Shown here piece after piece: positions 2,284-39,185 of a stretch of DNA of 64,000 bases. Made by a program: the position numbers and the translations under genes. The notes under the pieces were generated by a model. The model made no database searches, was not told where the DNA came from, and worked only from the letters and a program-made list of their open reading frames with translations. This DNA is from Pseudomonas sp. S35 (GTDB taxonomy: Bacteria > Pseudomonadota > Gammaproteobacteria > Pseudomonadales > Pseudomonadaceae). The stretch lies in contig NZ_CP019431.1 of assembly GCF_009866765.1 (NCBI RefSeq), forward strand, positions 6,547,403 to 6,611,402. Direction: 5' to 3'. Numbering within the stretch: position 1 is the first letter of the stretch; every line of letters starts with the position of its first letter.

Positions 2284-3723
2284 ATGGATTTCTTTGGCCC
2301 GCACCTGCTCGCCTACTTCATTGCCACGTTGCACTTTCTCGGGACACTGGCCGCGATCCATGCGGTGCTGACCGTCAGGACCGCCCAAGGCTCTATCGCC
2401 TGGGCCTTGTCGCTGATGTTCATGCCCTACCTCACGCTGATCCCCTACCTGATCTTCGGCCGCAGCACCTTCGACGCGTACATCCAGGCCCGTCGCCAGG
2501 CCAACCAGGAAATGCACACCGCCATCACCGAGCTGAACTGGCGCCCCTGGGTCGAAGAGGCCCTGGCCGCGCGCAATTCCAGTGCCTACGCCTCGTTGCG
2601 CGCCATGCCCAAACTGGGGCGCATGCCGTGCCTGGCCAACAATGAAGTGCGCCTGCTGGTGAATGGCGACGCCACCTTCAGCGCGATCTTCGACGCGATC
2701 CGCCACGCCAAGACGGCGGTGCTGTTTCAATTTTTCATCATTCATGACGACGACCTGGGCCAGCAACTTCATGCGCTGCTGAAGGAAAAAGCCGCCCAAG
2801 GCGTGAGCATCTACGTACTCTACGACCGCATCGGCAGCCACGCCCTGCCCCATCGCTATGTGCAATCGCTGCGCGACGCCGGCGTGCAGGTCAAGGCCTT
2901 CGCCACCCGCAGCGGCTGGCTCAACCGCTTCCAGGTCAACTTCCGCAACCATCGCAAAATCGTGGTGGTGGATGGCCTCACCGGGTTTGTCGGCGGGCAT
3001 AACGTGGGTGATGAATACCTGGGCAAGAAACCGCCATTGGCGCCGTGGCGCGATACCCATGTGCAGGTCACGGGCCCGGTGGTGGCGTGCCTGCAGGAAT
3101 CGTTTGCCGAAGACTGGTTCTGGGCCGCACGGGAACTGCCGCCGCTGATCCTGCCGGACGCGTATCCCGAAGACGGTGTGCTCTGCCAGCTACTCGCCAG
3201 CGGCCCGGCCGATCCGTACGAAACCTGCTCGCTGTTTTTTGTCGAGGCCATCCACGCGGCGACCGAGCGGGTGTGGATCACCAGCCCGTATTTCATCCCC
3301 GATGAAGCAGTGTTCGCCGCCCTGCGCCTGGCGGTGCTGCGCGGTGTCGACGTACGTCTGCTGCTGCCCTCGCGCCCCGACCATCGCATCGTGTATGCCG
3401 CCTCCAGCCTCTACGCCATCGAAGCCGTGCGCGCCGGGGTGCGCGTGTTCCGCTACACGCCGGGCTTTCTGCACCAGAAGGTGGTGTTGGTGGACAGCGA
3501 AATCAGCGCCATCGGCAGTGCCAACATGGACAACCGCTCGTTCCGGCTGAATTTTGAAGTGATGTTGCTGACCGTCGATGAAGCCTTCGCCAAGGAAGTC
3601 GAACAGATGCTGCTGGACGACTTTGCCCTGGCCCATGAAGTCAGCCAGGAAGAAAGCCGCGAAACCCGGCGCCTGCAGCAACTGGGGATGCGGGTGGCGC
3701 GTTTGATCTCACCAATCCTTTAA
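2284..3723 (+). CDS. clsA: Cardiolipin synthase (ClsA type)
   Basis: A 479-residue inner-membrane phospholipase-D-family enzyme that joins two phosphatidylglycerols into cardiolipin and glycerol. Two N-terminal membrane segments ([18 protein letters not shown] and [20 protein letters not shown]) are followed by two HKD motifs: HRKIVVVDG from His223 with GGHN downstream, and HQKVVLVD from His397 with GSANMDNRS downstream. Length and order fit ClsA. I prefer the ATG at 2284, with GGAG 11 bases upstream; a TTG at 2263 in the same frame would add 7 residues. It stands alone between a divergent gene and a convergent one. Confidence 0.93.
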
Positions 3724-27232: not shown

Positions 27233-28348
27233 TCACTTATGCCGTGAAACCACCTGCGTATAGAGCTCGGAATAGGCCTGCCCCAAACTTTGTGCGGTAA
27301 ACACGTCGAGATAGCGCGTTCGAGCCGCCTCACCGTAGCGCTGCGCAAGGTTTGGGTTGTCCCAGAGCGTCTGCATGGCCAAGCGCAAGGCGCCAGCATC
27401 CATCGGCGGCACGACAATACCGGTGGTGCCGTGCAAGTTGATGAAGCTGGTACCTGTGCCTATTTCACAGCAAATCAACGGTTTGCCGAACATCGCGCCT
27501 TCCAGCAAGCCGATACCGAACGCTTCTGAACGTAGGTGCGAGGGAAACACCACTGAGTAGCACGCCTGCATCAGGTTGACCTTGTCCTGTTCATCGACAC
27601 TTCCGAGGAAGTGCACGTTGGTCAGTTGAAGGCGGGCGGCGACGCGCATGAGTTCCTGCTCCAACGGGCCAGCACCGACGATCAGCAAGGGCCAGGGCGA
27701 CGCTTTCATGGCCTCCAGAAGGTAGTGCAACCCCTTGTAGTAGCGCTGAACGCCAACAAAGAGGAAAAAACGCTCGCCATACCGCCGTCGCAAATCTGCC
27801 ACCGCAGCTGCGTCCGGCTCCGGGTACAGAGACTGAGCCAGGCCGATGGGAATCGCCTGGGCCTTGTCCTGGTAGCGCCGCAGCACCGTTGAGCTTTGAA
27901 GGTAATTGGGGCTGGTCGCCGCAATCGCGTCGACCCGCCCGAGGAACGCATGCATCAGCGGTCGGTAGACCTGTAGCAACACTTTCTGGCGCACGATATC
28001 GGAGTGGTAGGTGACCACACTCGGCTTACGCAGCCCTTTGGCCAGGTGAACCAAGTCCATGAACGGCCAGGGGTAGTGGTAATGGATGACGTCAGCCTCC
28101 TGCGCCAAACGGGCGAAGTCTGCAAACGCCGACCAAGAGAACCCCGTCCTGGCGAGGTTGAGGTTCTGTCGGGACTGGTACATGCGGTAGCTGGGCGTTT
28201 GCTGGGGTGGCAGTGGCTCATCTGCCAGGGAGAGCACCGTATTCTGATAGCCTTGGGCCGCTGTCGCATCCGTCAGGTGCCGGATGAACATCTCAACGCC
28301 CCCGAACTGGTCAGGTCCGAAGGTCTTGTAGAAGTGCAAAACTCTCAC
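27233..28348 (-). CDS. Glycosyltransferase family 4 protein
   Basis: A 371-residue GT-B enzyme transferring a sugar from a nucleotide donor, probably onto the glycan exported by the operon's ABC transporter. The N terminus has FGGVEMFIRHL and VIHYHYPW. The C-terminal donor-binding half has LFVGVQRYYKGLHYLLEA, LLIVGAGPLEQELMR and the E-x7-E motif in RSEAFGIGLLEGAMFGKPLI. It resembles mannosyl- or rhamnosyltransferases of Wzm/Wzt-dependent O-antigens; donor unknown. It is the last gene of the minus-strand glycan operon and converges on pbpC with 25 bases between. Confidence 0.87.
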   Translation of the reverse strand: MRVLHFYKTFGPDQFGGVEMFIRHLTDATAAQGYQNTVLSLADEPLPPQQTPSYRMYQSRQNLNLARTGFSWSAFADFARLAQEADVIHYHYPWPFMDLVHLAKGLRKPSVVTYHSDIVRQKVLLQVYRPLMHAFLGRVDAIAATSPNYLQSSTVLRRYQDKAQAIPIGLAQSLYPEPDAAAVADLRRRYGERFFLFVGVQRYYKGLHYLLEAMKASPWPLLIVGAGPLEQELMRVAARLQLTNVHFLGSVDEQDKVNLMQACYSVVFPSHLRSEAFGIGLLEGAMFGKPLICCEIGTGTSFINLHGTTGIVVPPMDAGALRLAMQTLWDNPNLAQRYGEAARTRYLDVFTAQSLGQAYSELYTQVVSRHK

Positions 28349-28370
28349 GAAAAAAGCGCTCCCGACCGCA

Positions 28371-28793
28371 TCAACCCTTTACCGACAATTTGGTCCACAA
28401 CCCATCCACTTTCTGGATCGGACATTGAGCGTTGAAACCATTTGTGTCGGTACGCACAGCCGTCAGCACCTTCGGATTGTCGTCGACTTTCGAGAAGGTG
28501 ATCACGCCACAATCCTTGATGCGCACGATCAGCGGGCTGACCTCTGGAAAGGTGTTCATCTTGGCGTTGAAACCTGGATAGCCACTGATGACCTTGCTCA
28601 CCTTGCCGATGACGCGGTGAGCTTCAAGGCGGGTCTCTCCGTCGGGCAACTGGTTGAAGCGCAGGTATTGGCCATCCTGTTGCGGGACATTGACCGCCAT
28701 TGGTTTGGCCGTGGCCTGAGGTGCCGGCGTGGTGGCTTTGTCACAGCCGACGAGGGTCAACAATACAGCGCCAACGACGAACATCTTGTTCAT
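28371..28793 (-). CDS. Small predicted lipoprotein in the glycan operon
   Basis: A 140-residue protein with a signal peptide and lipobox (MFVVGAVLLTLVGC, Cys at about residue 15), then a Pro/Ala linker and a compact domain (FNQLPDGETRLEAHRVIGKV, LIVRIKDCGVITFSKV). I recognise no family. The ATG at 28793 has AAGGAG 9 bases upstream, and the open 16 codons before it are ignored. It lies between two glycosyltransferase genes, 60 and 22 bases from them, and may be a surface or periplasmic helper of the glycan. Confidence 0.75.
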   Translation of the reverse strand: MNKMFVVGAVLLTLVGCDKATTPAPQATAKPMAVNVPQQDGQYLRFNQLPDGETRLEAHRVIGKVSKVISGYPGFNAKMNTFPEVSPLIVRIKDCGVITFSKVDDNPKVLTAVRTDTNGFNAQCPIQKVDGLWTKLSVKG

Positions 28794-28853
28794 GCGGCGA
28801 TACTCCTTGTGAGGATTGGAAAGAATAGGTTTGTCGATCATGGTGACGTGTAC

Positions 28854-29858
28854 TCAGGTACGTCCCGCACCGCAGAGGCGCCGATACCGATCACGCGCCG
28901 CCACGGCAATACGCGGCGAAAACGAGAACAACAGCAGCGAAGACGCGGACACCAGCCAGCGTCGACGAAACCAGCAGAGCGCGTATTTATTGAGCAACAA
29001 GTGCAGGTAGCGTCCCACCCTGTGCCGCCCCGAACGACGAGCGCGCAGGGTGCTGAGGTCATCTGCGGTCAGGATCGTTTCGGGTGCGTAAGGATCCGTG
29101 AGGAATCGCGCTGGCGGTGTCACGCCGAGACTCTGCCAGTCGTGGACTTCGAAATTGTCCAGCAGCAGGTCTTCCCATGCGCAGAACGCAGCGAAGCGGG
29201 TGTCCGAGATATGTTCAAGGTCCAGCGCCACGCCGCAGGTTTGTATGAAGCGCAGCAGGATGGCCTGCTCGGGCAGCAGCCGGAAAGAGGTGTAGCCCTG
29301 GAACGTGCCGATCGGATTGATCCGAGGGCCGCCTGCCAGGTAGACAAATTCAGCCGGTAGCGGACCGATGCTCCAGAGCCGCCGAAGGTCATCAGTGCGA
29401 CCAAACTGCAGCGTATCGCTCAGGTGAAACAGGTAGCAGAGTTTGATCGGATTGCGCAGGAACAGGTTAGAGACGCCAATCCTTGCGCCCAGCAGGTTTG
29501 CGGGTTGCTCCTCGCCCATCAGCGTCAGCAGCGCGTCGCTGCACAGCACGTGATCGGTGCGCAGTTTGAGTGAGAACTCCCGCGTCGCCAGGGCCATGCC
29601 ATTGGCGACGGAGCCAATGAGTTTGTTGACGTTATTGAGGTTGCCGTTGACGTCGTCGAAATGCCTGGGCGACGCATCGACGACGCACTGCACGCCCTCA
29701 TAGGCCACGTCGGTGCGGTCATCCGTGGTAGATAGGATGATCTGCGCCCCAGGCAGGTAGTGGCGCACCGACTGTATGGCGCGCGCGGCGATATCCACCG
29801 CGCCGTCCCGCAGAGGGCCTTGGAGAATGACCGAGAGCCTGCCTGCGTCGATGCTCAT
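28854..29858 (-). CDS. WavE-like glycosyltransferase
   Basis: A 334-residue protein matching the WavE lipopolysaccharide-synthesis family by its start LSVILQGPLRDG, then LPGAQIILSTTDD, the NLNNVNKLI block, FSLKLRTDHVL (R-D pair at the putative donor site) and the C-terminal WEDLLLDNFEV. It probably adds a core or chain sugar. Its ATG overlaps the GMC oxidoreductase gene by 4 bases. Confidence 0.8.
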   Translation of the reverse strand: MSIDAGRLSVILQGPLRDGAVDIAARAIQSVRHYLPGAQIILSTTDDRTDVAYEGVQCVVDASPRHFDDVNGNLNNVNKLIGSVANGMALATREFSLKLRTDHVLCSDALLTLMGEEQPANLLGARIGVSNLFLRNPIKLCYLFHLSDTLQFGRTDDLRRLWSIGPLPAEFVYLAGGPRINPIGTFQGYTSFRLLPEQAILLRFIQTCGVALDLEHISDTRFAAFCAWEDLLLDNFEVHDWQSLGVTPPARFLTDPYAPETILTADDLSTLRARRSGRHRVGRYLHLLLNKYALCWFRRRWLVSASSLLLFSFSPRIAVAARDRYRRLCGAGRT

Positions 29859-31333
29859 GCGCGTTCGTTCAAGGTGTTCGCCAACATCAGGGCAAGGGCG
29901 ACGACCGTCACTGTCGGGTTGCGTGACCCGCAGCGCGGAAACAACGAAGACCCGGCGACGTAGACGTTTTCAGTGCCCTTGACGCGAAAGTCCTTATCGA
30001 CCACCGCGTTGTCACCCGCGCTCATGTTCAACATGCCCACGAGGTGATGGGTCCCGAAGGCATTTTGATAATGTGCTTGTTCGGCTTCACGAACGGGCAA
30101 CACCCCAAGTGCTTCCATCTTTGCGTAGATCGCGGCAATTACCGCATCGTAGCGGTGTTTATTTCCGTGGTAGCCGTCGGTGTCCATGCGTACGGCACCG
30201 CCCTCATAGAACAGCGAAACGTCCCACTGCGGCGGAATTTCCAAGAGGATGTACAAGCTCAGGGTGCCGGCCAGTTCTTCAACCGATTCCTGTACCGCCC
30301 AGCTGTTCATCTTTTTCAGGTCCAGCGCGCCGGCCAGGGCTGCATTACTGGCCGATGTCATCAGGCCCAGCGTGGTGTACTCGATGCCATCCAGTTCACC
30401 AGAAAGCTCCGGGATCACCACCTGCGCGGCGGTATTGACCTGGAAGAACGGGATCTTCGCCTTAGGCAAGTGACAGGCCAGTTCGGCAACCGCGTGGTCC
30501 TGGCAGTAACGCCCGATGAACGCCTTCGGGGTTTGCGGCGGCAAGTTGCTTTTCCACAGCAGCTTCAACGATTCTACGCCGTGCGCCGCAATGACCACGC
30601 GATTGAAACGAATACTTAGAGGCCCCTTGGGTGTCTGGCAGATCGCCTCAACGGCCTTGCCGTCCTCGAAGCGCAAATGATCGACCAGCACCTCGTTCAT
30701 CACCTGTGCGTTGTTGCGGATATGCAGTGAACGGGTCTTGGCGTCCATCGGGCATAACTCGCAGTCGCCCGCCCCCATGCAGAGGCCTTGCCCATCGAGG
30801 TTTTCCACGGACAGGTTGTGCGCCTGCGCACCGATATAGGCTTGCGGAAAATAAGGCGACAAGGCTTGGTGCCAACGATGCGTGCCTTGGATTTCGGACA
30901 GCGAGTTGCGCTCGTCGGGGTCACGGGGGTCAGCACTGATGCGCAGCAGGCGCTCGGCATTGCGGTAATGAGGTTGCAACGTTTGGAAGTCGAATGGCCA
31001 ACGGAACCCATCGGCCGTCTGGTCAAACATCGACGCAGAAAGCCGGAAGCTCAACCCGCCCCAGTGGTTGGAACAGCCGCCATCGACCAGGATGTAGTCG
31101 GAGGCACAATCGGGCGGTAGCTCCTCGGGCATATTGAAGGCGTGCACGGACTCATAGGAACGGCGAATCAGCGCATCGTGGCGGTCGGCTTTTTCCATGG
31201 CGTTGAATCGAGCGCGTCGTTCAAAGATGTTGAACTTCTCACCGCGTTCAACGATGAGGCAAGGGCCCGTCAAACCATGCGCAACGGTACGTCCGGCAAA
31301 GCCGTTGCCGATAATCAGTGTTTCAACAAACAT
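29855..31333 (-). CDS. GMC-family FAD-dependent oxidoreductase (sugar dehydrogenase-like)
   Basis: A 492-residue flavoprotein. The FAD-binding IIGNGFAGRTVA is at residue 7, so there is no export signal of its own. SNHWGGLSFRLSASMF and a Cys-containing segment CMGAGDCELCPMDAKTRS follow, then AAHGVESLKLL. The family C terminus reads FGTHHLVGMLNMS and VAGSSLFPRCGSRNPTVTVVALAL, with the conserved Asn. Gluconate, sorbitol and fructose dehydrogenases share this build and travel to the periplasm with a Tat-signal small subunit. The gene just before encodes such a partner, overlapping by one base. A role in oxidising a sugar of the exported glycan is inferred. Confidence 0.83.
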   Translation of the reverse strand: MFVETLIIGNGFAGRTVAHGLTGPCLIVERGEKFNIFERRARFNAMEKADRHDALIRRSYESVHAFNMPEELPPDCASDYILVDGGCSNHWGGLSFRLSASMFDQTADGFRWPFDFQTLQPHYRNAERLLRISADPRDPDERNSLSEIQGTHRWHQALSPYFPQAYIGAQAHNLSVENLDGQGLCMGAGDCELCPMDAKTRSLHIRNNAQVMNEVLVDHLRFEDGKAVEAICQTPKGPLSIRFNRVVIAAHGVESLKLLWKSNLPPQTPKAFIGRYCQDHAVAELACHLPKAKIPFFQVNTAAQVVIPELSGELDGIEYTTLGLMTSASNAALAGALDLKKMNSWAVQESVEELAGTLSLYILLEIPPQWDVSLFYEGGAVRMDTDGYHGNKHRYDAVIAAIYAKMEALGVLPVREAEQAHYQNAFGTHHLVGMLNMSAGDNAVVDKDFRVKGTENVYVAGSSLFPRCGSRNPTVTVVALALMLANTLNERA

Positions 31334-31638
31334 TAGCCTGTAACTCTATAAAAACCGGGCGTACCCAACGTGCGGGTATAGGGCTCTACCACGAACAATG
31401 AACGGTTGTGGTGGACCAGATGGTGGAGGATGGCCTCTCGGTCTTCATCCTTGAGGTTGCGCGAATAAAGCTTGATCAGCAGATCGGGGGGCATGTGATG
31501 GAATTTCACCTGCGAATTGCCCTGCTGGAGCGCACGAAAATCAACGCTCTTGACCATCGATCGGCGACCCAGCCAGCCCCCTAGCGCTACGCCACTCGCG
31601 AATACACCTAGCCCCGCAACGAACTGTCTACGCTTCAT
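31333..31638 (-). CDS. Short Tat-signal partner of the GMC oxidoreductase
   Basis: A 101-residue protein starting MKRRQFVAGLGVFASGVALG, which fits the twin-arginine pattern RRxF followed by a hydrophobic stretch. The rest (HHMPPDLLIKLYSRNLKDED) is a small helical domain. Known GMC partner subunits (gluconate-2-dehydrogenase subunit 3 type) are usually 180-240 residues, so this is unusually short. Its stop overlaps the GMC start (TAATG), which strongly suggests complex formation and piggy-back export. Confidence 0.75.
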   Translation of the reverse strand: MKRRQFVAGLGVFASGVALGGWLGRRSMVKSVDFRALQQGNSQVKFHHMPPDLLIKLYSRNLKDEDREAILHHLVHHNRSLFVVEPYTRTLGTPGFYRVTG

Positions 31639-31642
31639 CGGC

Positions 31643-32260
31643 TCACGATCTCACGCGGACGATGCGTTGGTAGAAAAAGCGGGCCAGTTGGCGCAACTTG
31701 GAAACCGGCCACGCAATAAACGGCGAACTGAACAGGGCTTTCTCCAATATGGTAGAAAGCAGGAACAGTTGGTAGCGATCCGCATCCTGCGCAGCGTTGC
31801 CACCGCTGGAGGTGCTGTTGAACACGCCGTTGACTTGGCGTGCCATGTGGCCCAGTTGCAGGCGCGGCATCAACAGCACAATGTGTTTGTCACGCAGGGC
31901 GTTGGACAAAAACGTGAACGTCGCCAACTTGCGGATGAAGTCCTTGATGACCAGTTGTTCGTGCAGGCCGAAATCAATCAACAACCATGACTCGCAAGCC
32001 GCCCCCAGTTTTGAACGGATCACATTGGCATCGGACACAAACTCGCCATTGTTGACACTGCCTTTGTCGTGCAGGAAATCATCCAGCACAAACGCTCTGA
32101 CGGTCGGCGCAGGCTGTACCTGGGGCACCGACCATGTGCACTCATCGATCACCACGATCTGGGTGAGCAACGAGGACGGCTGTTCAACCTGTGACAGGAA
32201 GGTCACCAGTTGCACTTGCTGGCCGTGCGCTGCCTCTTGGGAAATCAGAAAAATGTTCAT
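31643..32260 (-). CDS. Unrecognised protein in the glycan operon
   Basis: A 205-residue protein beginning MNIFLISQEAAHGQQVQLV. It has alternating hydrophobic strands (TQIVVIDECTWSVP, ESWLLIDFGLHEQLVI, KHIVLLMPRLQL) and a basic C terminus (LARFFYQRIVRVRS), with no signal peptide. I recognise no family. Start at 32260 with GGAG 8 bases upstream; the ATGA overlap with the gene before shows coupling. A nucleotide-sugar-related or glycosyltransferase-like fold is possible but not shown. Confidence 0.7.
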   Translation of the reverse strand: MNIFLISQEAAHGQQVQLVTFLSQVEQPSSLLTQIVVIDECTWSVPQVQPAPTVRAFVLDDFLHDKGSVNNGEFVSDANVIRSKLGAACESWLLIDFGLHEQLVIKDFIRKLATFTFLSNALRDKHIVLLMPRLQLGHMARQVNGVFNSTSSGGNAAQDADRYQLFLLSTILEKALFSSPFIAWPVSKLRQLARFFYQRIVRVRS

Positions 32261-34032
32261 TTCCTGTGCTCCACATAGCGTTGGAACGGTGTGGAGTTGT
32301 AGATCGCGCGCACGCACTCACGAAAGCCCGAAAAATAGAAAACCTCGCCGTTTCGACGGTACAGCCTAATAGCCGACAGCAAGGTTCCAGGCACGCTCAG
32401 GAGGCGAGGATGGAAGTAGTCCTCCAACCCTTCATAGAACCAGCTTTGCAGCGGGCGCTGGCGCAGCATGTTACGGAACTCGGAGCTGCCGTAGACCAGG
32501 TTGCGCTTCGCCTCGCGGGGGTTCTCCATGAACTGGAAAGCAATCGACTCGACCATGGTGTTGGGCAATTGGTCCAGGAGCACCCATTTCTCAAAATCGC
32601 GGATGAACATCGTCACGGATTCCAGGTTATTGCCGAAACCACAGCCCTGCACCACTTCGTCCACCAACTTCAGCCAGGCCCGGGAGCTGATAACCTTCAA
32701 GCCGGTAGGGATATGAGGGACCGTGTCACCCATCGCATACTTATTGGCAAACCGCTGCAAGCGGATAAGCGCTTCGTTTGCCGACATGCGAATCAGCGGT
32801 TTCTTGCGCAAGAACGAAAACTGCGAAGGGCCTGTGCGGCCATAGCGACCGCTGCAGGATTCGACGGGCGATTCAGCACCGAGCAGTGCCCTGGACGTCA
32901 CCGATTGAGTGATGCCATACGGATTGACCCGCGTCGGCACGCCGCCCTTGGATGCACGAATGCCATGTTCGATATCTTCGAACTCGGCCCACAGCAGGGA
33001 CTCGTCAAGGGTGAACGCCTGCCACACTTCCTTGCGACAAATGTACAGGCTGCCGGTGGGGTAGCTGGCGTCTTTGGCGTATCGCACAGGGCTCGCAAAA
33101 CAGAAACCGGTACGTTCAATTTCCGCAAACAGCGCCGGGGCGATGCTGACCACTTCGTTGTCGCGTCGATGCATACCTTTCATGCCTTCGGCGATCACAC
33201 CCATCGCCATGCCGTAATCTGAATAGCGGCGCGGCCCGACGTTGCGCACATTGTCGAAGAACAGGCTTTGCAGTGTCATCAACGGGTAACGTGGGCCGAA
33301 GCGGCGGACCATTTCGCCGAAGTGCGTCGGCAAGAACACCCGATCATGCAAGATAACCAAGTTGTTATAGCGGGCTTCATCGGCGATGCGGTTCTTCTTC
33401 TTGCAGATCTGCACGGGTGGCGCGGTGATGTCTTCCCCCACGATGCGCACCTGATCGAAATAGCGGAAGTTCTTGCCTGGCGTGCCACACAGAAGGATTT
33501 CCTTGTTGGGGATATCCAGTTCAAGAATGCGCTGCACGACGGCATTGAGCACCGTGGCATCTTCGGGGCCCACCGGGATACCGAAGGTCCAACTGTCCAG
33601 ATCATCGTCTGTCTGTGCCGGCAGCAACCCGGCCTTGCGGTAAACCACGCGGTCGGCGCTACGCTCGACGCAGACCATGGCCGTGTTGAAGTAGGCGCGG
33701 TCCAGGTAGCTGTCTACCGAGGAGTCTTCAATGACGGTGAGTGTTTCGCCCACTGCCAGAAAGTGCGCGGCGTCCCACAACAGCAAGGGGCTCAGTTGTG
33801 AGTCGCTTTGCACACCGTAAAAGCAGTACGACCCGGGACCATAGATATCCAGCGGCCGTTTTGCTGCATGCAGCCCTTTGAGCGTGATATCAGGGCGGCC
33901 TTGCTCGAAGCGACGGAAGGAAAACAACGTCTGGTTGCCTTCCATCATGCTCAGGTCGGCCGGGAGCGCGCGCAGTTGTTTGGGCGCGAGGTAGCCCAGC
34001 TTCGGATCATGTTGCAGCTCTATCGTTTTCAT
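32257..34032 (-). CDS. Large putative glycosyltransferase of the glycan operon
   Basis: A 591-residue protein. The central region (ARYNNLVILHDRVFLP, with the His-Asp-Arg step, and LYICRKEVWQAFTLDESLLW followed by EFEDIEHGIRA) looks like a GT-A glycosyltransferase acceptor/donor block. The acidic 'EFEDIEHG' is typical of the catalytic-base region. The N-terminal 190 residues and the C-terminal 200 do not match anything I recognise, so extra domains are likely. There is no signal peptide. It overlaps both neighbours by 4 bases. Confidence 0.65.
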   Translation of the reverse strand: MKTIELQHDPKLGYLAPKQLRALPADLSMMEGNQTLFSFRRFEQGRPDITLKGLHAAKRPLDIYGPGSYCFYGVQSDSQLSPLLLWDAAHFLAVGETLTVIEDSSVDSYLDRAYFNTAMVCVERSADRVVYRKAGLLPAQTDDDLDSWTFGIPVGPEDATVLNAVVQRILELDIPNKEILLCGTPGKNFRYFDQVRIVGEDITAPPVQICKKKNRIADEARYNNLVILHDRVFLPTHFGEMVRRFGPRYPLMTLQSLFFDNVRNVGPRRYSDYGMAMGVIAEGMKGMHRRDNEVVSIAPALFAEIERTGFCFASPVRYAKDASYPTGSLYICRKEVWQAFTLDESLLWAEFEDIEHGIRASKGGVPTRVNPYGITQSVTSRALLGAESPVESCSGRYGRTGPSQFSFLRKKPLIRMSANEALIRLQRFANKYAMGDTVPHIPTGLKVISSRAWLKLVDEVVQGCGFGNNLESVTMFIRDFEKWVLLDQLPNTMVESIAFQFMENPREAKRNLVYGSSEFRNMLRQRPLQSWFYEGLEDYFHPRLLSVPGTLLSAIRLYRRNGEVFYFSGFRECVRAIYNSTPFQRYVEHRK

Positions 34033-34355
34033 TCTTCTACGACATATTTGTCATTCAGCGCGCCCGGCACTTTGACCACCACGGTCACCGCATCACTAAG
34101 TGCCTTGAAGGCCGTGATGTCGCCTGGTTCCAGCACGACGATCTCGCCGGCGCCCCAGGTCTTGCCACACATCTGGACTTCACCGGACAAGATCAGCGTC
34201 ACTTCAGTGGCGATCTTGTGATAGTGAGCCGCCTCAGCATCACCCGCCGAGTAAGGTTTGACGGCAACTTCACAGGCTTGTGTGCTGAATGCAGTAGGCG
34301 TGAAACCACCGACGAACCAGCCCTTGACCATGTCTTTCAGATTGGCGGAGTTCAT
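34029..34355 (-). CDS. Cupin-fold protein
   Basis: A 108-residue single cupin domain. Motif 1 is AAHYHKIATEVTLILSGEV and motif 2 is VLEPGDITAFKALSD, giving an H-x-H and Glu ligand set for a metal. In glycan clusters such small cupins often act as sugar isomerases or epimerases, or bind a nucleotide sugar. Which applies here is unknown. It overlaps each neighbouring gene by 4 bases. Confidence 0.78.
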   Translation of the reverse strand: MNSANLKDMVKGWFVGGFTPTAFSTQACEVAVKPYSAGDAEAAHYHKIATEVTLILSGEVQMCGKTWGAGEIVVLEPGDITAFKALSDAVTVVVKVPGALNDKYVVEE

Positions 34356-35083
34356 CTTGGACCTACATTCTCGAACGCATGTAACTGGTGATGGCTCTTG
34401 AGCGGGTGGTACTGGCTCGGATCCACGCGGTGGGTTCCGATCTTCTTGTGCAGCAGCACCAGTTCGTTGAGTGCCGGTGCAATGTAGAACGCATCGTTGA
34501 CCTTGAAGTCCTTGCGGATCATTTCCTTCACGGCCTCGACAAACACACAGCCTTTGGCGAACCAGTACAGGCCGGCCACGGCATGGTTGCTGATGGGGTT
34601 TTTCTCAGCCGCCTCGACCACATAACCGTGCTCATTCTTGCGCACGAACGAGTAGCGCGGGTGCAACGACTTGAAGACCACTACGCCGGCATCGCACTCA
34701 TCGCTACGGAAGTCTTCGACAATGTCGCCAAGCGCCGCGTCGAGCAGTTCGTTGCAGCTGAGAATCAGCAGTTCGTCGTCGTTGTCGATGCTCTCGGCCG
34801 CCAACAGTGCGGTGCAGGCCGCACCCATTGTCAACGCATGGACCGAGTGAATAGAGGCAATTGGACTCATCTGCTGCAGCATGTTGCGCAGGTGATACTT
34901 GGCCACGTCTGCCTTGGGTAGCATGCAGGAGATGCTGGAAGGTTGCAGTTCGAGGCATTTTTCAACCAGGTCCTGGATCAACGGAACGCCGTCACGCTCC
35001 GACAGGTAGCCCGGGTAGTTGCTTTCGGCCATGACCGAAGCGGTATCGCCCCCGGCCAGGAGTATGACGTTCAACTTGCGCAC
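34352..35083 (-). CDS. Divergent nucleotidyltransferase-like protein
   Basis: A 243-residue Rossmann-type protein resembling sugar-phosphate nucleotidyltransferases. It has an N-terminal NVILLAGGDTASVMAES in place of the usual GGxGTRL loop, a middle DDELLILSCNELLDAAL where the metal-binding Asp would lie, and a C-terminal FKVNDAFYIAPALNELVLL shared with the other nucleotidyltransferase of the operon. The altered loop raises doubt about canonical activity. It overlaps the HAD gene by 13 bases. Confidence 0.72.
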   Translation of the reverse strand: MRKLNVILLAGGDTASVMAESNYPGYLSERDGVPLIQDLVEKCLELQPSSISCMLPKADVAKYHLRNMLQQMSPIASIHSVHALTMGAACTALLAAESIDNDDELLILSCNELLDAALGDIVEDFRSDECDAGVVVFKSLHPRYSFVRKNEHGYVVEAAEKNPISNHAVAGLYWFAKGCVFVEAVKEMIRKDFKVNDAFYIAPALNELVLLHKKIGTHRVDPSQYHPLKSHHQLHAFENVGPR

Positions 35084-35724
35084 AACAATTTCTCCTGCTC
35101 TGACGCTTTATTGATCTGCTCGATCCGGGCAGTGATGTTGTCCAGGTTCACATCATTGACGTCCTCGACAACCAGCACGTGAGCACCGGAAGCACGCGCG
35201 GCACGAATGCCGTTCTCGTTGTCTTCCACGATCAGGCACTCTTGCGGCAGCAGTCCGAAGGACTCGATGGCCTTGATGTAGATGTCGGGGGCAGGTTTGG
35301 CGTGTTCCACGTCTTCGTTGGAAAACTTGAGGTCCAGATACTGATCCAGGCGCGACTTCTCCATCATCACCTCGACCGTGTTGGCAATCGAATTGGAGGC
35401 TACTGCCAGCTTGTAGCCGAGGCTCTTGAGCGACGACAACGCGTACTGGTGAATGAAGCTCGGCTTGCACTGTGCATAGACGATTTCCATCGTATACATC
35501 TGCTTCATCTCGTTGATGAAGGGGTGCAGTTCGATAGGCAAGTCACGCTCCAGGCTGAGTATGTCCAGCTTGCGTGAGGTTGGCAGACCGTCATAGGTGG
35601 TCAGGTGCTCGTGGCGGCTGATCGTGTGGCCGAAGAGGTTCAGCGCTTTGTTCAGCGCCTCGTAATGCCAGTCCTTCGCTTCGATCAACACGCCGTCCAT
35701 GTCGAAAATCACGGCTTTAATCAT
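35071..35724 (-). CDS. HAD-superfamily phosphatase (beta-phosphoglucomutase-like)
   Basis: A 217-residue HAD hydrolase with all four motifs: VIFDMDGVLIEA (nucleophile Asp9), VASNSIANT, HAKPAPDIY and CLIVEDNENGIRAA. The helical cap lies after motif 1. It would dephosphorylate or mutate a small phosphorylated sugar or polyol. Set between a GDPD-like gene and nucleotidyltransferases, it may make a building block of the glycan. Confidence 0.85.
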   Translation of the reverse strand: MIKAVIFDMDGVLIEAKDWHYEALNKALNLFGHTISRHEHLTTYDGLPTSRKLDILSLERDLPIELHPFINEMKQMYTMEIVYAQCKPSFIHQYALSSLKSLGYKLAVASNSIANTVEVMMEKSRLDQYLDLKFSNEDVEHAKPAPDIYIKAIESFGLLPQECLIVEDNENGIRAARASGAHVLVVEDVNDVNLDNITARIEQINKASEQEKLLCAS

Positions 35725-35728
35725 GATG

Positions 35729-36346
35729 TCATTCCTTGAAGAAAGTGCGAGCTGCTTCAGGCAGGTCGGTACATAACGTCAGGTTGTGGGAGCCCTGGAA
35801 TTCGGCGAGTAGTCGCCACAAGGGCAAATGTTCGCGACCGTGCAGTTCCGAGGACACCACACTGACCTGCTTGCCCTGACCCAGCAGGTCGGCGAGTTGG
35901 CCGGGCGAGTACCACTCAGCACCGAAGCTATCCAGCCAAACGCCGTCGGCTTCATGAAGCCAAGCCGGAACCGGCTCGACCTCACTCTGGCGGGTATAGG
36001 TGCACACACCGCTGGCGAGGTAACTGCGCATATCGGGCACGGCCATGTCGAAGACAAACCAATTGCTATGGCCATGGGCGTCGAACGCCGCCTTCAGCGG
36101 GGCGCAGAGTCCGTCAGCCTTGATATTCATGGCCAGCGGCAGGTTGCGCCCGGCCATGATCGCCAGCAGTTCGTCCAGCGGCATTTCGCTGCCGTCGGGC
36201 ATGTCGTGGGAAATGACCAAGCGCCCACCGATGTCGCGCACATCGGTTTCCGTGCCGAAGCCCAGGTCGAAGGAACGCTCGAAGGCGGCTTTCTGGTTAC
36301 GCTCGGGCTTTTGCAGCCAATAACCGCGGTGACTGATAATCTGCAT
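35729..36346 (-). CDS. Glycerophosphodiester phosphodiesterase-like protein
   Basis: A 205-residue GDPD-fold protein with the catalytic set in place: ISHRGYWLQKPERN at the N terminus, then FGTETDVRDIGGRLVISHD (Glu, Asp and His). It lacks a signal peptide, so it acts in the cytoplasm, and it is shorter than typical GDPD enzymes (about 250). Similar proteins in capsule or O-antigen clusters are thought to act on glycerol-phosphate-like or nucleotide-linked substrates. Gaps to its neighbours are 4 and 6 bases. Confidence 0.83.
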   Translation of the reverse strand: MQIISHRGYWLQKPERNQKAAFERSFDLGFGTETDVRDIGGRLVISHDMPDGSEMPLDELLAIMAGRNLPLAMNIKADGLCAPLKAAFDAHGHSNWFVFDMAVPDMRSYLASGVCTYTRQSEVEPVPAWLHEADGVWLDSFGAEWYSPGQLADLLGQGKQVSVVSSELHGREHLPLWRLLAEFQGSHNLTLCTDLPEAARTFFKE

Positions 36347-36352
36347 GACAGA

Positions 36353-37108
36353 TCAGCGCCCTGCACACGCTGCACGGCTGACCGGCAGATTGAGGAACAG
36401 ATCCAAGTCCGACGGGATGCCCAGGCCATACATACCCGCGCCTTCCGAACCCACGTTGTAATGGATGACCCGAGCCTGGTTCTTGATCATCTCGTTGTAG
36501 GCCGGTGCCACATAGAACTCGCCATTGACCCGCAGGTCTTTGTCGAACATCGCCTCGATGGCCGCGATCAGTTGACGACCGCTACGGAAGTTGTAGATGC
36601 CCACCGTGGCCTCATCGGAGATCACTTCCTTTTCAACCACGCACTCGATTCGCCCGTCTTGCGCGAAGCCAACGAAGGACCACTTCGGGTCGTTCGCCTT
36701 CATGGTCATGATCAAGCCATCAGCATTTTGTGCCTGCATGGCACTCAGGTACGCGTCGATGTTCACGTCAACGTATTGGTCACTGTTGGCGATCATTACC
36801 GGACTATCGGAGTCGATCAGATCCTTGGCCGCGTACACCGTGCAGGCCGCGCCTTCGGTAACGCCATCCAGCTCGACGATGGCGCAACCGGGCGCCCAAG
36901 CCTGCAACTTTTCGTTCAGACCGTAGGCTTCGACATGCGCTGCCTGGCAGATGAAGATGAAGCGGTGCTCGCAGGATGGCGTAAGGTTGTCGATAACGAC
37001 TTTGATCATCGGCACCGAGTGCACCGGAATCAGTGGTTTCGGATCGGTGTAGCCTGCAACTGCGAAGCGGCTGCCAGCACCTGCCATGGGGACGACTATA
37101 TTAAGCAT
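36353..37108 (-). CDS. Nucleotidyltransferase family protein (NTP-dependent)
   Basis: A 251-residue enzyme with the pyrophosphorylase start VVPMAGAGSRFAVAGYTDPK followed by PLIPV, the metal-binding segment PVMIANSDQYVDVN and EFYVAPAYNEMIK. It would activate a sugar or polyol phosphate with an NTP. I start it at 37108, where GAGGAA lies 7 bases upstream; the open frame goes 12 codons further. Eleven bases separate it from the upstream ABC ATPase gene. Confidence 0.85.
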   Translation of the reverse strand: MLNIVVPMAGAGSRFAVAGYTDPKPLIPVHSVPMIKVVIDNLTPSCEHRFIFICQAAHVEAYGLNEKLQAWAPGCAIVELDGVTEGAACTVYAAKDLIDSDSPVMIANSDQYVDVNIDAYLSAMQAQNADGLIMTMKANDPKWSFVGFAQDGRIECVVEKEVISDEATVGIYNFRSGRQLIAAIEAMFDKDLRVNGEFYVAPAYNEMIKNQARVIHYNVGSEGAGMYGLGIPSDLDLFLNLPVSRAACAGR

Positions 37109-37118
37109 TTGATTTCCT

Positions 37119-37820
37119 CTACCGGCGTACGAGGTACTGTTCATACGCGTCTATAACTTCACTGGCCGGGCCAATCATTTGTACCCGTCCATCCTTGAGC
37201 CAGCACACGCGGTTGCACAGTTCCCGGACGCGCTGGGAGTCATGCGAGACAAATACGACGGTCTGTTCGCCCATCATCATGTCTCGCATCGTGGCTTCCG
37301 CCTTTTCGCGAAAGTGGCCATCGCCGACGCTCAACACTTCATCCAGCAGGATCACATCGGGTCGTGAATACTTGGAGATGGCAAAGCCCAGGCGCGCTTT
37401 CATACCTGTGGAATAGCTGCGTACTGGCACTGCGGCGCTGATATGAAGCTCGGCGTAATCGAGAATCTCGTCGCTCAATTCGCGCATGCGTCTACGGCTC
37501 ATGCCCATCAACATGCCGCTGAGGACAATATTGTCTCGAGCATCAAGGTTCTCATCGAAGCCCAATTGCAGGTTGAGCAACGAAACACTGGAAACGGACT
37601 GGACCAGGCTGCCGCGAGTCGGCTGGTAGATCCCTGCCAACACCTTGAGCAACGTGCTCTTGCCCGCGCCATTGCTGCCGACTATCCCGAACGTATCGCC
37701 ACGTGCTATCGAAAAAGACAGATCGTGCAATACCGTGGTGGAGGCCCTCGACATCAATCGAAGACCGTTACGAAAGGTGAGCGACAGTGATTTCGTCGTA
37801 AGAGCGGCTGGCGCGTTCAT
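37119..37820 (-). CDS. wzt: ABC-transporter ATPase for polysaccharide export (Wzt/KpsT-like)
   Basis: A 233-residue ATPase with Walker A GSNGAGKST, the signature RSYSTGMKARLGFAI, Walker B DVILLDEVLSVGD and the switch His in FVSHDSQRV. These match the Wzt/TagH/KpsT subfamily. It ends soon after the nucleotide-binding domain, so it lacks the C-terminal carbohydrate-recognition domain found in many O-antigen Wzt proteins. It overlaps the permease gene by 4 bases. Confidence 0.9.
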   Translation of the reverse strand: MNAPAALTTKSLSLTFRNGLRLMSRASTTVLHDLSFSIARGDTFGIVGSNGAGKSTLLKVLAGIYQPTRGSLVQSVSSVSLLNLQLGFDENLDARDNIVLSGMLMGMSRRRMRELSDEILDYAELHISAAVPVRSYSTGMKARLGFAISKYSRPDVILLDEVLSVGDGHFREKAEATMRDMMMGEQTVVFVSHDSQRVRELCNRVCWLKDGRVQMIGPASEVIDAYEQYLVRR

Positions 37821-38614
37821 TTGCTCAGCGCCATGGCATAAGCGTTCTTGTTCCGTGCGAGGAACAGCACCGCCAGCATCAGCAGCCCTGACGCACCGCC
37901 GGCTAACGCCAGGAGATCGATCAGCACCGGCGCGCGTCCATACATCAATACATCGCGATACATTGAAATCAGCGCAGCCAACGGATTGATGTCGAGCAGA
38001 AAGCCCAATTCAGCCGGGATGTTGGCTTTGCTGTAAAACACACCGGAGGCAAACATCAGAAATTGCAGGCCTGTGGAGATAAGAATGCGCAGGTCCGGCA
38101 TGAATGGAATGAGTCCGGCAACGAATACGCCTAGCGCCGCAGTAATGATCAACTGCACAAGGGCAATGAGCGGAACATACAACCAAAGCCAACTCGGCAT
38201 CACACCGATAGCACAGAGAAGCAACAACAATAAAACAACGACCAGTGATTCTTTAACCAAGTCTTTGAATATCGAAGTCAGCGGAAAAATCAGAGGGTCA
38301 ACTTTGCAGTGCTCGAGAATATGCTTCTTTTCGTAAATGGCGTCTGTGCAGTTCATCACGCTCTTGTTGAACCATGTCCAGAATGTGACGCCGATGATCA
38401 GGAAAACCGCAAAGTTCTCAACCTGAATACGCAACAAGTGACCGAAGACGCTGTAGTAGATGCCCAACAGCAGAATGGGCTCCAGCACCCACCATGCGAA
38501 TCCAAGGCGGGTTCGCGTCGATTCCGACTTCAGCCCAAGTCTGGCACGCTCCACCGACACCTGTATCGTCGGGAAAATTCTGAGGCTTCCTTGTCGCCAG
38601 GGCATCGCACACAT
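37817..38614 (-). CDS. wzm: ABC-transporter permease for polysaccharide export (Wzm/KpsM-like)
   Basis: A 265-residue ABC-2 permease with an amphipathic N terminus (SVERARLGLKSESTRTRLGF), then six membrane helices, and the family blocks AWWVLEPILLLGIYY, ILEHCKVDPLIFPL and FASGVFYSKANIP followed by NPLAALISMYRDV. It is the first gene of the operon. Start is 38614 or the ATG 9 bases inside at 38605; neither has a strong ribosome site. Confidence 0.88.
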   Translation of the reverse strand: MCAMPWRQGSLRIFPTIQVSVERARLGLKSESTRTRLGFAWWVLEPILLLGIYYSVFGHLLRIQVENFAVFLIIGVTFWTWFNKSVMNCTDAIYEKKHILEHCKVDPLIFPLTSIFKDLVKESLVVVLLLLLLCAIGVMPSWLWLYVPLIALVQLIITAALGVFVAGLIPFMPDLRILISTGLQFLMFASGVFYSKANIPAELGFLLDINPLAALISMYRDVLMYGRAPVLIDLLALAGGASGLLMLAVLFLARNKNAYAMALSK

Positions 38615-39067
38615 CTCAACAAAAACAGCCGCGCACCATACACTGATAATGGCAATCAGCCCACCCAGCAGTACATTTTTCCTACATAATAGTTCAATTA
38701 AACATATTTCAAATTGTTACAAAACCAAAAAATCCATCAGCACCACGCTGTCGATACCGTCCTGACGAGCATTTTCTGAATGGTTTTTGAGGCCGTCTTA
38801 AGCAGCTAGTGGCGCCCTCCAACAACCTACGGAGTAGGGCATTACGCGAAAGGCCAATGGCGAATGGAAGGATTGTATAGCGGCAACCGTGCTATGGATT
38901 TGCCTTGCATCCATAAACAACGCTTTAACTAATTAGATACGCAAGCCGATTGAATAGTTAATAAGTACGCACACCACAACTGCCAAAAACATATTAAATT
39001 CGGTACTTATGAAACCAGCCTCTGCAAGATTAACTGCGTGCGCGGTTTGGCACTCAACGGGCGCATG
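38615..39067. other. AT-rich leader/intergenic region before the glycan operon
   Basis: About 450 bases without a convincing gene, markedly richer in A+T than the surroundings (long A/T runs at 38690-38735 and 38930-39000). It should hold the promoter of the divergent-looking, but same-strand, glycan operon. On the minus strand GCCACTAGCTGCTTAAG (38797-38812 region) recalls part of a JUMPStart element, and 38743-38758 weakly recalls ops. I see no gene in it. Confidence 0.5.
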
Positions 39068-39100
39068 AAAAAAACGCCGGATAGCTCAAAGTCTATCCGA
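39068..39100 (-). terminator. Intrinsic terminator of glmS
   Basis: On the minus strand a tcggatag/ctatccg stem with a short loop is followed by GCG and seven T. It lies about 90 bases past the glmS stop and fits a strong rho-independent terminator. Confidence 0.8.
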
Positions 39101-39185
39101 CGGTATTGAAGGCGTCTGCGAGAGTTAGAGGTACGATCTGCATCCCACAGAACGGACCACGCCGGGCCTCCAGGTGCGTGAGGAG

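Follow-up and report, generated by a model that had tools for sequence, protein, structure and literature searches.

A predicted Tat-escorted GMC dehydrogenase in a Wzm/Wzt surface-glycan operon of Pseudomonas sp. S35

Introduction

What does a flavoprotein of the GMC oxidoreductase superfamily do in an operon for an exported surface glycan, when it carries no export signal of its own and is preceded by a tiny twin-arginine (Tat) protein? The question is raised by a 64,000-nucleotide stretch of the Pseudomonas sp. S35 genome (contig NZ_CP019431.1, positions 6,547,403 to 6,611,402; hereafter the window, to which all coordinates refer). A sequence-only reading had proposed that the GMC protein oxidizes the exported glycan or its precursor. 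We favor, at a probability of roughly 55%, the interpretation that the 101-residue twin-arginine protein (Tat101) and the GMC protein form a cytochrome-less two-subunit γ-α sugar dehydrogenase with flavin adenine dinucleotide (FAD) and a 3Fe-4S cluster, which was recruited to a surface-glycan operon and would oxidize the glycan in the periplasm. Its basis is the family of the flavoprotein, the residues of its cofactor site, its fold, its pairing with Tat101 and the linkage of both to the glycan module.

The GMC Flavoprotein

The GMC protein joins a GMC C-terminal domain to an N-terminal FAD Rossmann motif, as is characteristic of the superfamily, and its residues G9, G11, G14, H430 and N472 are invariant across 33 aligned sequences. 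The homologue set comprises 54 proteins, the five weakest of which were dropped for motif counts; all 49 others contain HH...NPT. By profile and fold, the nearest relatives are the FAD/3Fe-4S catalytic subunits of Burkholderia FAD-glucose dehydrogenase (FAD-GDH; BcGDH for the B. cepacia enzyme) and of fructose dehydrogenase (FDH), and the predicted structure has the α-subunit fold of the FAD-GDH/FDH type. The FAD-contacting histidine and the catalytic His/Asn pair (H430/N472) align with those of the FAD-GDH type. In addition, C185, C191 and C194 align with Cys212, Cys218 and Cys222 of the BcGDH α subunit, which ligate its 3Fe-4S cluster according to excerpts of PMC6719666, and are thus the predicted ligands here. 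This three-cysteine motif is present in 47/49 homologues, the two exceptions being pieces of 306 residues. The top NCBIfam match, the mycofactocin dehydrogenase MftG, was rejected as an assignment (53 bits versus a cut-off of 387). Since the protein starts directly at the Rossmann strand (MFVETLIIGNGFAG), no signal peptide is seen, in line with the earlier claim that it lacks an export signal. Searches of viral contigs returned no relative, and a class-wide search of 369 genomes (E <= 1e-30) found the window's own genome only.

Tat101, the Proposed Escort

A signal-less GMC subunit next to a small Tat protein has a precedent in FAD-GDH, whose small Tat 'hitchhiker' subunit γ, encoded just upstream, exports the catalytic GMC subunit, as described in excerpts of PMC6719666. 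In the window, a separate small twin-arginine protein is likewise encoded beside the GMC gene: Tat101 ends at 31333, which is also the start of the GMC gene, and the one-base overlap reported by the sequence-only reading is thereby borne out. Its N-terminus reads MKRRQFVAGLGVFASGV. In an alignment of 11 sequences that counts the window's own and reaches down to 30% identity, R3 and R4 are invariant, as is a C-terminal PGF[Y/F]RV. A profile search collected 42 proteins, among them Tat101 itself and the first four relatives. Among these, 35/42 have a twin arginine (RR) within the first 12 residues and 41/42 a PGF-aromatic-R at the end, while the seven without an early RR start past its usual position, four of them being pieces of 56-88 residues.

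In γ, Pro156-Gly157-Phe158-Trp159 belongs to a C-terminal loop packed close to the Fe-S cluster (PMC6719666, excerpts); the PGFY of Tat101 resembles this stretch, a likeness noticed after the fact that may serve as a lead only. Tat101 is regarded as a protein that would work like γ, and is not classed as a γ-family member.

Operon Layout and Linkage to the Glycan Module

The pair lies within 14 minus-strand open reading frames (ORFs; starts as set by the ORF caller unless noted) that run from 38614 to 27233 as one tight operon, in this order:

37817..38614, minus strand: wzm, Wzm-like ABC-2 polysaccharide exporter permease, 265 residues (ABC2_membrane PF01061, E 1.3e-13)
37119..37820, minus strand: wzt, short Wzt-like ATPase, 233 residues (PF00005, E 1.7e-20; no Wzt_C domain match)
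36353..37144, minus strand: NTase1, sugar-phosphate nucleotidyltransferase-like (PF00483, E 1.1e-10; closest solved structure 4evw, E 7.3e-18)
35729..36346, minus strand: small GDPD-like phosphodiesterase, 205 residues (weak PDB match 3no3, E 0.086; no Pfam match)
35071..35724, minus strand: HAD hydrolase of the beta-phosphoglucomutase/sugar-phosphatase type (PF13419, E 8.4e-32; TIGR02009 below its cut-off)
34352..35083, minus strand: NTase2, second nucleotidyltransferase-like protein (PF00483, E 7.6e-07; about 26-30% identity to NTase1 of related loci)
34029..34355, minus strand: cupin, 108 residues (PF07883 weak, E 0.0015, below cut-off)
32257..34032, minus strand: 591-residue protein with GT2-like central part, probable glycosyltransferase (PF13641 weak, E 3.1e-4, below cut-off)
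31643..32317, minus strand: p224 (no Pfam or NCBIfam match)
31333..31638, minus strand: Tat101, twin-arginine protein, proposed export escort (hitchhiker) of the GMC protein (no Pfam family)
29855..31333, minus strand: GMC catalytic subunit, 492 residues, FAD, predicted 3Fe-4S (GMC_oxred_C PF05199, E 1.2e-16)
28854..29858, minus strand: wavE, WavE-family protein, probable glycosyltransferase (PF07507, E 1e-34)
28371..28841, minus strand: putative lipoprotein, judged from its sequence, start possibly at MNKMFVVGAVLLTLVGC (in 3/9 loci only)
27233..28348, minus strand: GT4 glycosyltransferase (PF00534, E 1.4e-28; in 4/9 loci)

An ABC-2 permease, a Wzt-type ATPase and glycosyltransferases thus stand together in one operon, as expected for ABC (Wzm/Wzt)-dependent glycan export, and the Pfam domains of Wzm and Wzt substantiate the exporter assigned to the operon head by the sequence-only reading. 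The top NCBIfam model for Wzt, galactan_ABC_ATP, stays below its cut-off (174.8 bits versus 400). We take the HRG / ETD / HD pattern of the 205-residue protein to be GDPD-like, and its orthologues on two plasmids are annotated 'phosphodiesterase'. The compact one-strand arrangement of the 14 genes also proved correct: 11 of the 13 junctions overlap or are at most 10 bases apart, the remaining gaps being 12 and 22 bases. Three of these 11 have long overlaps (61, 26 and 13 bases), two of which become normal junctions with a later in-frame Met; p224 likely starts at its Met at residue 20, which leaves a 4-base overlap with the upstream 591-residue gene, and NTase1 from a later in-frame Met starts 10 bases after wzt. 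The gap before the lipoprotein gene is 60 instead of 12 bases if the Met before the hydrophobic stretch is the start. The operon is flanked by glmS upstream and by pbpC and an alpha-2-macroglobulin gene downstream. The genome consists of one 6.6-Mb contig, and for this locus its closest named relatives belong to Pseudomonas. GC content gives no sign of a foreign origin, as the value falls to 0.54-0.60 in the operon yet stays at 0.54-0.61 to the window end.

Across genomes, the two proteins behave as a co-inherited pair: the GMC gene occurs in 4/398 Pseudomonas genomes, the window's own included, and Tat101 in the identical four. Genomic context was available for nine loci, namely the window, L006-L011, L022 and L023 (named loci and two plasmids); five of 11 loci (L012-L016) hold distant GMC proteins only (25-45% best segment) and are excluded from these counts, and most of the 54 homologues are known as proteins without context. 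The two sets of counts are not independent, because three of the four genomes supplied the contigs of L006, L007 and L009. Tat101 and GMC are adjacent in 9/9 loci, which together with the invariance of R3 and R4 argues for more than a chance pairing. All nine share wzt, NTase1, GDPD, HAD, NTase2, cupin, the 591-residue gene, p224, Tat101, GMC and wavE in the same order, with the pair always between p224 and wavE. The expectation that the pair always accompanies wzm and wzt held for wzt (9/9) and not fully for wzm (8/9), and none of the nine shows a close homologue outside a glycan cluster beside a cytochrome gene.

The loci fall into two groups that diverge strongly in wzm (20% identity), wzt (36%) and wavE (36%), while GMC retains 69%, the five precursor genes 62-78% and the 591-residue protein 65%; Tat101 (42%) and p224 (31%) evolve fast. 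Hence, the module including GMC and Tat101 is kept across different exporters. In Pseudomonas sp. 21 (L011), the core genes, wzm/wzt, wavE and the 591-residue gene group with the window, L006 and L007 (support 100). Its GMC shares only 60% identity with that group, below the 69% between the two groups. Its Tat101 clusters with the other group (100/100), and a tree that includes outgroup rows places its GMC there too (100/99.9). Formal tests are mixed. The constraint that joins L011 to the window's group, opposite the five others, passed without rejection for both GMC (p 0.36 to 0.44) and Tat101 (p 0.11), and a rejection at p 1.5e-7 is void because that constraint split L011 from its sister P0042; when P0042, P0038 and P0046 were held with L011 against all other rows, p was 0.015. 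These data are suggestive of a joint exchange of Tat101 and GMC.

Mobility of the Cluster and the Core Without GMC

A P. alcaligenes plasmid and a P. aeruginosa plasmid also carry the module, and glmS adjoins it in only some loci. On the P. aeruginosa PA83 plasmid (L023:3322-4395), an IS30-family transposase gene occupies the expected wzm site with the remaining module present, so this copy may not export. The interval between glmS and pbpC (noted at window 38615-39185 and in L043) is a surface-glycan locus of variable content. A close relative (G017; pbpC 96% identical) has a different cluster between pbpC and glmS, which contains a Wzm-like ORF (E 0.003) and a wzt homologue 38% identical to the wzt of the window and 41% to that of the other group; another relative (G004) carries by pbpC a set of genes that look metal-efflux-like by eye.

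A core of GDPD-like, HAD, NTase, (cupin), NTase and WavE genes recurs across proteobacteria (L024, L026, L027; L020 in G1084). By tblastn, GDPD, HAD, NTase, cupin and second NTase follow in this order on Ruegeria and Roseinatronobacter plasmids, and Azospirillum and Rhizobium have GDPD, HAD and NTase-like repeats with no separate cupin; none of these four core stretches gave a tblastn match to GMC or Tat101. WavE comes next in Ruegeria and Azospirillum, as it does in Roseinatronobacter according to the annotation. One genome from the window's own class combines wzm, wzt, GDPD, HAD, cupin, NTase1 and wavE with a homologue of the 591-residue protein (38% identical), and has no separate NTase2 and no match to Tat101 or GMC. 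The activated product of this core was found described nowhere in the literature searched.

Electron Transfer and Proposed Mechanism

FAD dehydrogenases of the direct-electron-transfer type are recognized by a multi-haem cytochrome c β subunit in their operon, which is absent here. No CxxCH motif occurs in any of the 14 operon proteins, nor, at any of the nine loci, in plus-strand ORFs of at least 80 residues across the module stretch. The setting differs in Pseudomonas relatives whose small subunit is of the PF12318 type: of 57 searched, three carry one, and all of these (3/3) have an adjacent three-CxxCH cytochrome gene and a GMC protein with CX5CX3C. A PF12318 search of the window's own genome gave no match, which carries no weight by itself because the controls were silent too; its PF13618 locus has a small subunit, a GMC-like ORF and a three-CxxCH cytochrome in a row. 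Being cytochrome-less, the glycan-operon pair would hand its electrons to a carrier encoded elsewhere, and proteins behind the 21 PF00034 matches elsewhere in this genome could serve as acceptor. BcGDH γ-α without β is active with dyes (PMC6719666, excerpts).

In the proposed mechanism, the GMC protein would fold in the cytoplasm with FAD and its Fe-S cluster and bind Tat101, whose twin-arginine signal would carry it through the Tat pore. As no evident signal-peptidase site is seen in Tat101, the escort may remain as a membrane anchor. In the periplasm, the enzyme would oxidize a hydroxyl of the Wzm/Wzt-exported glycan or of its lipid-linked form, and electrons would pass from FAD via the Fe-S cluster to the external carrier. 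We thus infer a complex, its export, a substrate and an acceptor, with differing degrees of confidence: the pair quite probably works like an exported hitchhiker dehydrogenase, and the exported glycan is only somewhat favored as its substrate. The broader concept of periplasmic redox tailoring, in which an Fe-S flavoprotein with a dedicated mini Tat escort oxidizes a polymer after ABC export and feeds electrons into the respiratory chain, is more tentative still, at slightly less than even odds. Known tailoring of exported O-polysaccharides consists mostly of acylation, glucosylation, methylation and phosphorylation, and a post-export oxidation step was found described for no Wzm/Wzt glycan in the literature searched. 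If true, a dedicated flavoprotein of respiratory type would tie the chemistry of the surface to electron transport, with carbonyl or acid groups introduced outside the cytoplasm. Tat101, with 101 residues, no detectable γ homology and inheritance together with its presumed cargo, would also be a minimal system for Tat hitchhiking specificity.

Evidence Against and Alternative Explanations

Several observations weigh against the periplasmic γ-α interpretation. The operon encodes no electron acceptor. Because the core exists without GMC and Tat101, these appear to be an added step, and oxidation would be optional for the core. Comparison of Tat101 with γ-type subunits and other mini Tat partners by hhalign revealed no homology (probabilities 0.2 to 18%), the top value of 18% spanning the RR motif only; for FAD-SLDH (PF12318) and Gluconate_2-dh3 (PF13618) there was no Pfam match at E <= 10 and an hhalign probability of 0.2-0.9%, and the Tat101 profile gave only chance-level matches to PDB chains (best E 0.05). 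A Tat101-GMC fusion, built by read-through of the natural stop of L009, was modelled poorly, with a predicted local distance difference test (pLDDT) of 62.8, mostly <65 in the Tat part (15 unpaired rows, two-residue linker); its fold matches repeat those of GMC only. The cysteine loop of GMC (182-184, 186-198) is modelled at pLDDT <50. Among 29 plasmid records with a GMC match, six were inspected beyond the two Pseudomonas ones, all with distant GMC proteins (24-25%): the Methylobacterium small subunit before GMC has no RR at its annotated start, and no small partner is annotated beside the Acidiphilium and Caballeronia proteins. Of the others, Halarchaeum has an RR small subunit just before GMC, Thioclava a 176-residue protein without RR, and the Rhizobium record carried no annotation.

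Could the GMC protein instead be a cytoplasmic enzyme for a precursor, activated by nucleotide or phosphate, that the NTase/HAD/GDPD/cupin module makes, with Tat101 exported or membrane-bound, unrelated to it and only co-transcribed? The missing signal, the neighboring precursor genes and the poor fusion model would fit, yet we consider this unlikely. Both genes occur in the same 4/398 genomes and adjacent in 9/9 loci, the order of small Tat gene and GMC gene together with the Fe-S site matches exported dehydrogenases, and a sugar-nucleotide enzyme in the cytoplasm would gain little from an Fe-S route to respiratory carriers. Moreover, GMC cannot be a required precursor step, as the core elsewhere lacks it.

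Similarly improbable is an ordinary periplasmic respiratory dehydrogenase for free sugars or polyols that is carried as cargo in the glycan cluster. Its closest solved relatives are indeed free-sugar dehydrogenases, and the cluster is mobile, given the two plasmids and the inconstant glmS neighbor. Against this stand the constant position between p224 and wavE in 9/9 loci, the restriction to 4/398 Pseudomonas genomes, and the lack of a cytochrome motif in the 14 proteins and the nine-locus module stretch versus its presence beside 3/3 PF12318-type relatives. Oxidation of the chain end or a decoration only (as a cap, ligation or anchoring handle) rather than of every repeat is very improbable. 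In its favor, the short Wzt without Wzt_C match implies, by analogy with known Wzt systems, that any chain-end control must lie elsewhere, but such control is normally cytoplasmic and precedes ABC export, which leaves a periplasmic oxidase unable to cap growth.

Comparison with Known Systems

The closest known system for the periplasmic γ-α interpretation is B. cepacia FAD-GDH (γ-α; 6A2U, 8GRJ), which shares the GMC subunit with three aligned cysteines, the FAD and catalytic residues and the fold, as well as a separate small Tat protein as escort. In contrast, the GMC protein here is 19-21% identical to it, has CX5CX2C in place of CX5CX3C and no Cys213 counterpart; the escort has 101 residues, whereas γ residues up to 163 are cited in the excerpts, and no detectable homology to γ; and the operon has a Wzm/Wzt setting and no cytochrome c β subunit. 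Gluconobacter FDH (7W2J, 8JEJ) is the second-best profile and fold match at only 15-18% identity. This enzyme oxidizes a free sugar and has a cytochrome subunit. Within the window's own genome, the PF13618-type operon (L070) also places an RR small subunit next to a GMC-type ORF, but it has a three-CxxCH cytochrome and a small subunit of 250 residues, and lies 6.5 Mb away in the record.

A Wzm/Wzt cluster of Methylobacter luteus (L015:9764-12267; Wzt with Wzt_C domain, unlike here) has a GMC gene directly followed by one for an RR protein (MKRRKFLGL near its start). This GMC belongs to another branch without the Cys motif, as judged by eye, and the RR protein is larger, lies downstream and, like its cluster, has no match to Tat101 or the NTase/GDPD/HAD module. 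If real, post-export redox tailoring thus possibly arose more than once, as this RR partner has no BLAST match to Tat101. Ten relatives of the L015 GMC were found in 9/339 genomes, with an RR protein directly behind in four (L045, L046, L047, L054; 1.5 kb viewed); one such relative (L061), with asparagine-synthase-like and epimerase-like genes by eye, resembles a glycan cluster. RR proteins of about 120 residues also stand behind distant alphaproteobacterial GMC proteins (L013:6573-6935, L014:7235-7594 and, in L016, ORF 2862-3470 with the RR at about 3114). They share a C-terminal 'W..PE....LCALAA', and the partners in L061 and L062 have the similar ending 'GW.LS.TE..LCAL'. The set has the look of a second mini-Tat-partner family. 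The alphaproteobacterial core (L024, L026, L027) has homologues of the operon's middle genes (GDPD and HAD 46-64%), with no GMC or Tat101 match and other cluster genes that differ.

The OBC3 cluster of Pseudomonas protegens was rejected as a counterpart, since it occupies a different position, flanked by aer_2 and a CPBP protease gene (PMC10715155). The main text of that paper mentions no oxidoreductase, wzm or glucosamine, nor do excerpts of PMC9213528 mention wzm or an oxidoreductase. Among the matches listed, from literature mostly without subscription papers, no report placed a GMC protein in a Wzm/Wzt cluster. The view that the gene set is undescribed therefore stands for its glycan setting and not for the Tat-GMC pairing, which is known from the γ-α hitchhiker arrangement of FAD-GDH (PMC6719666, excerpts). 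What is new here is the glycan setting and a tiny escort without detectable γ homology.

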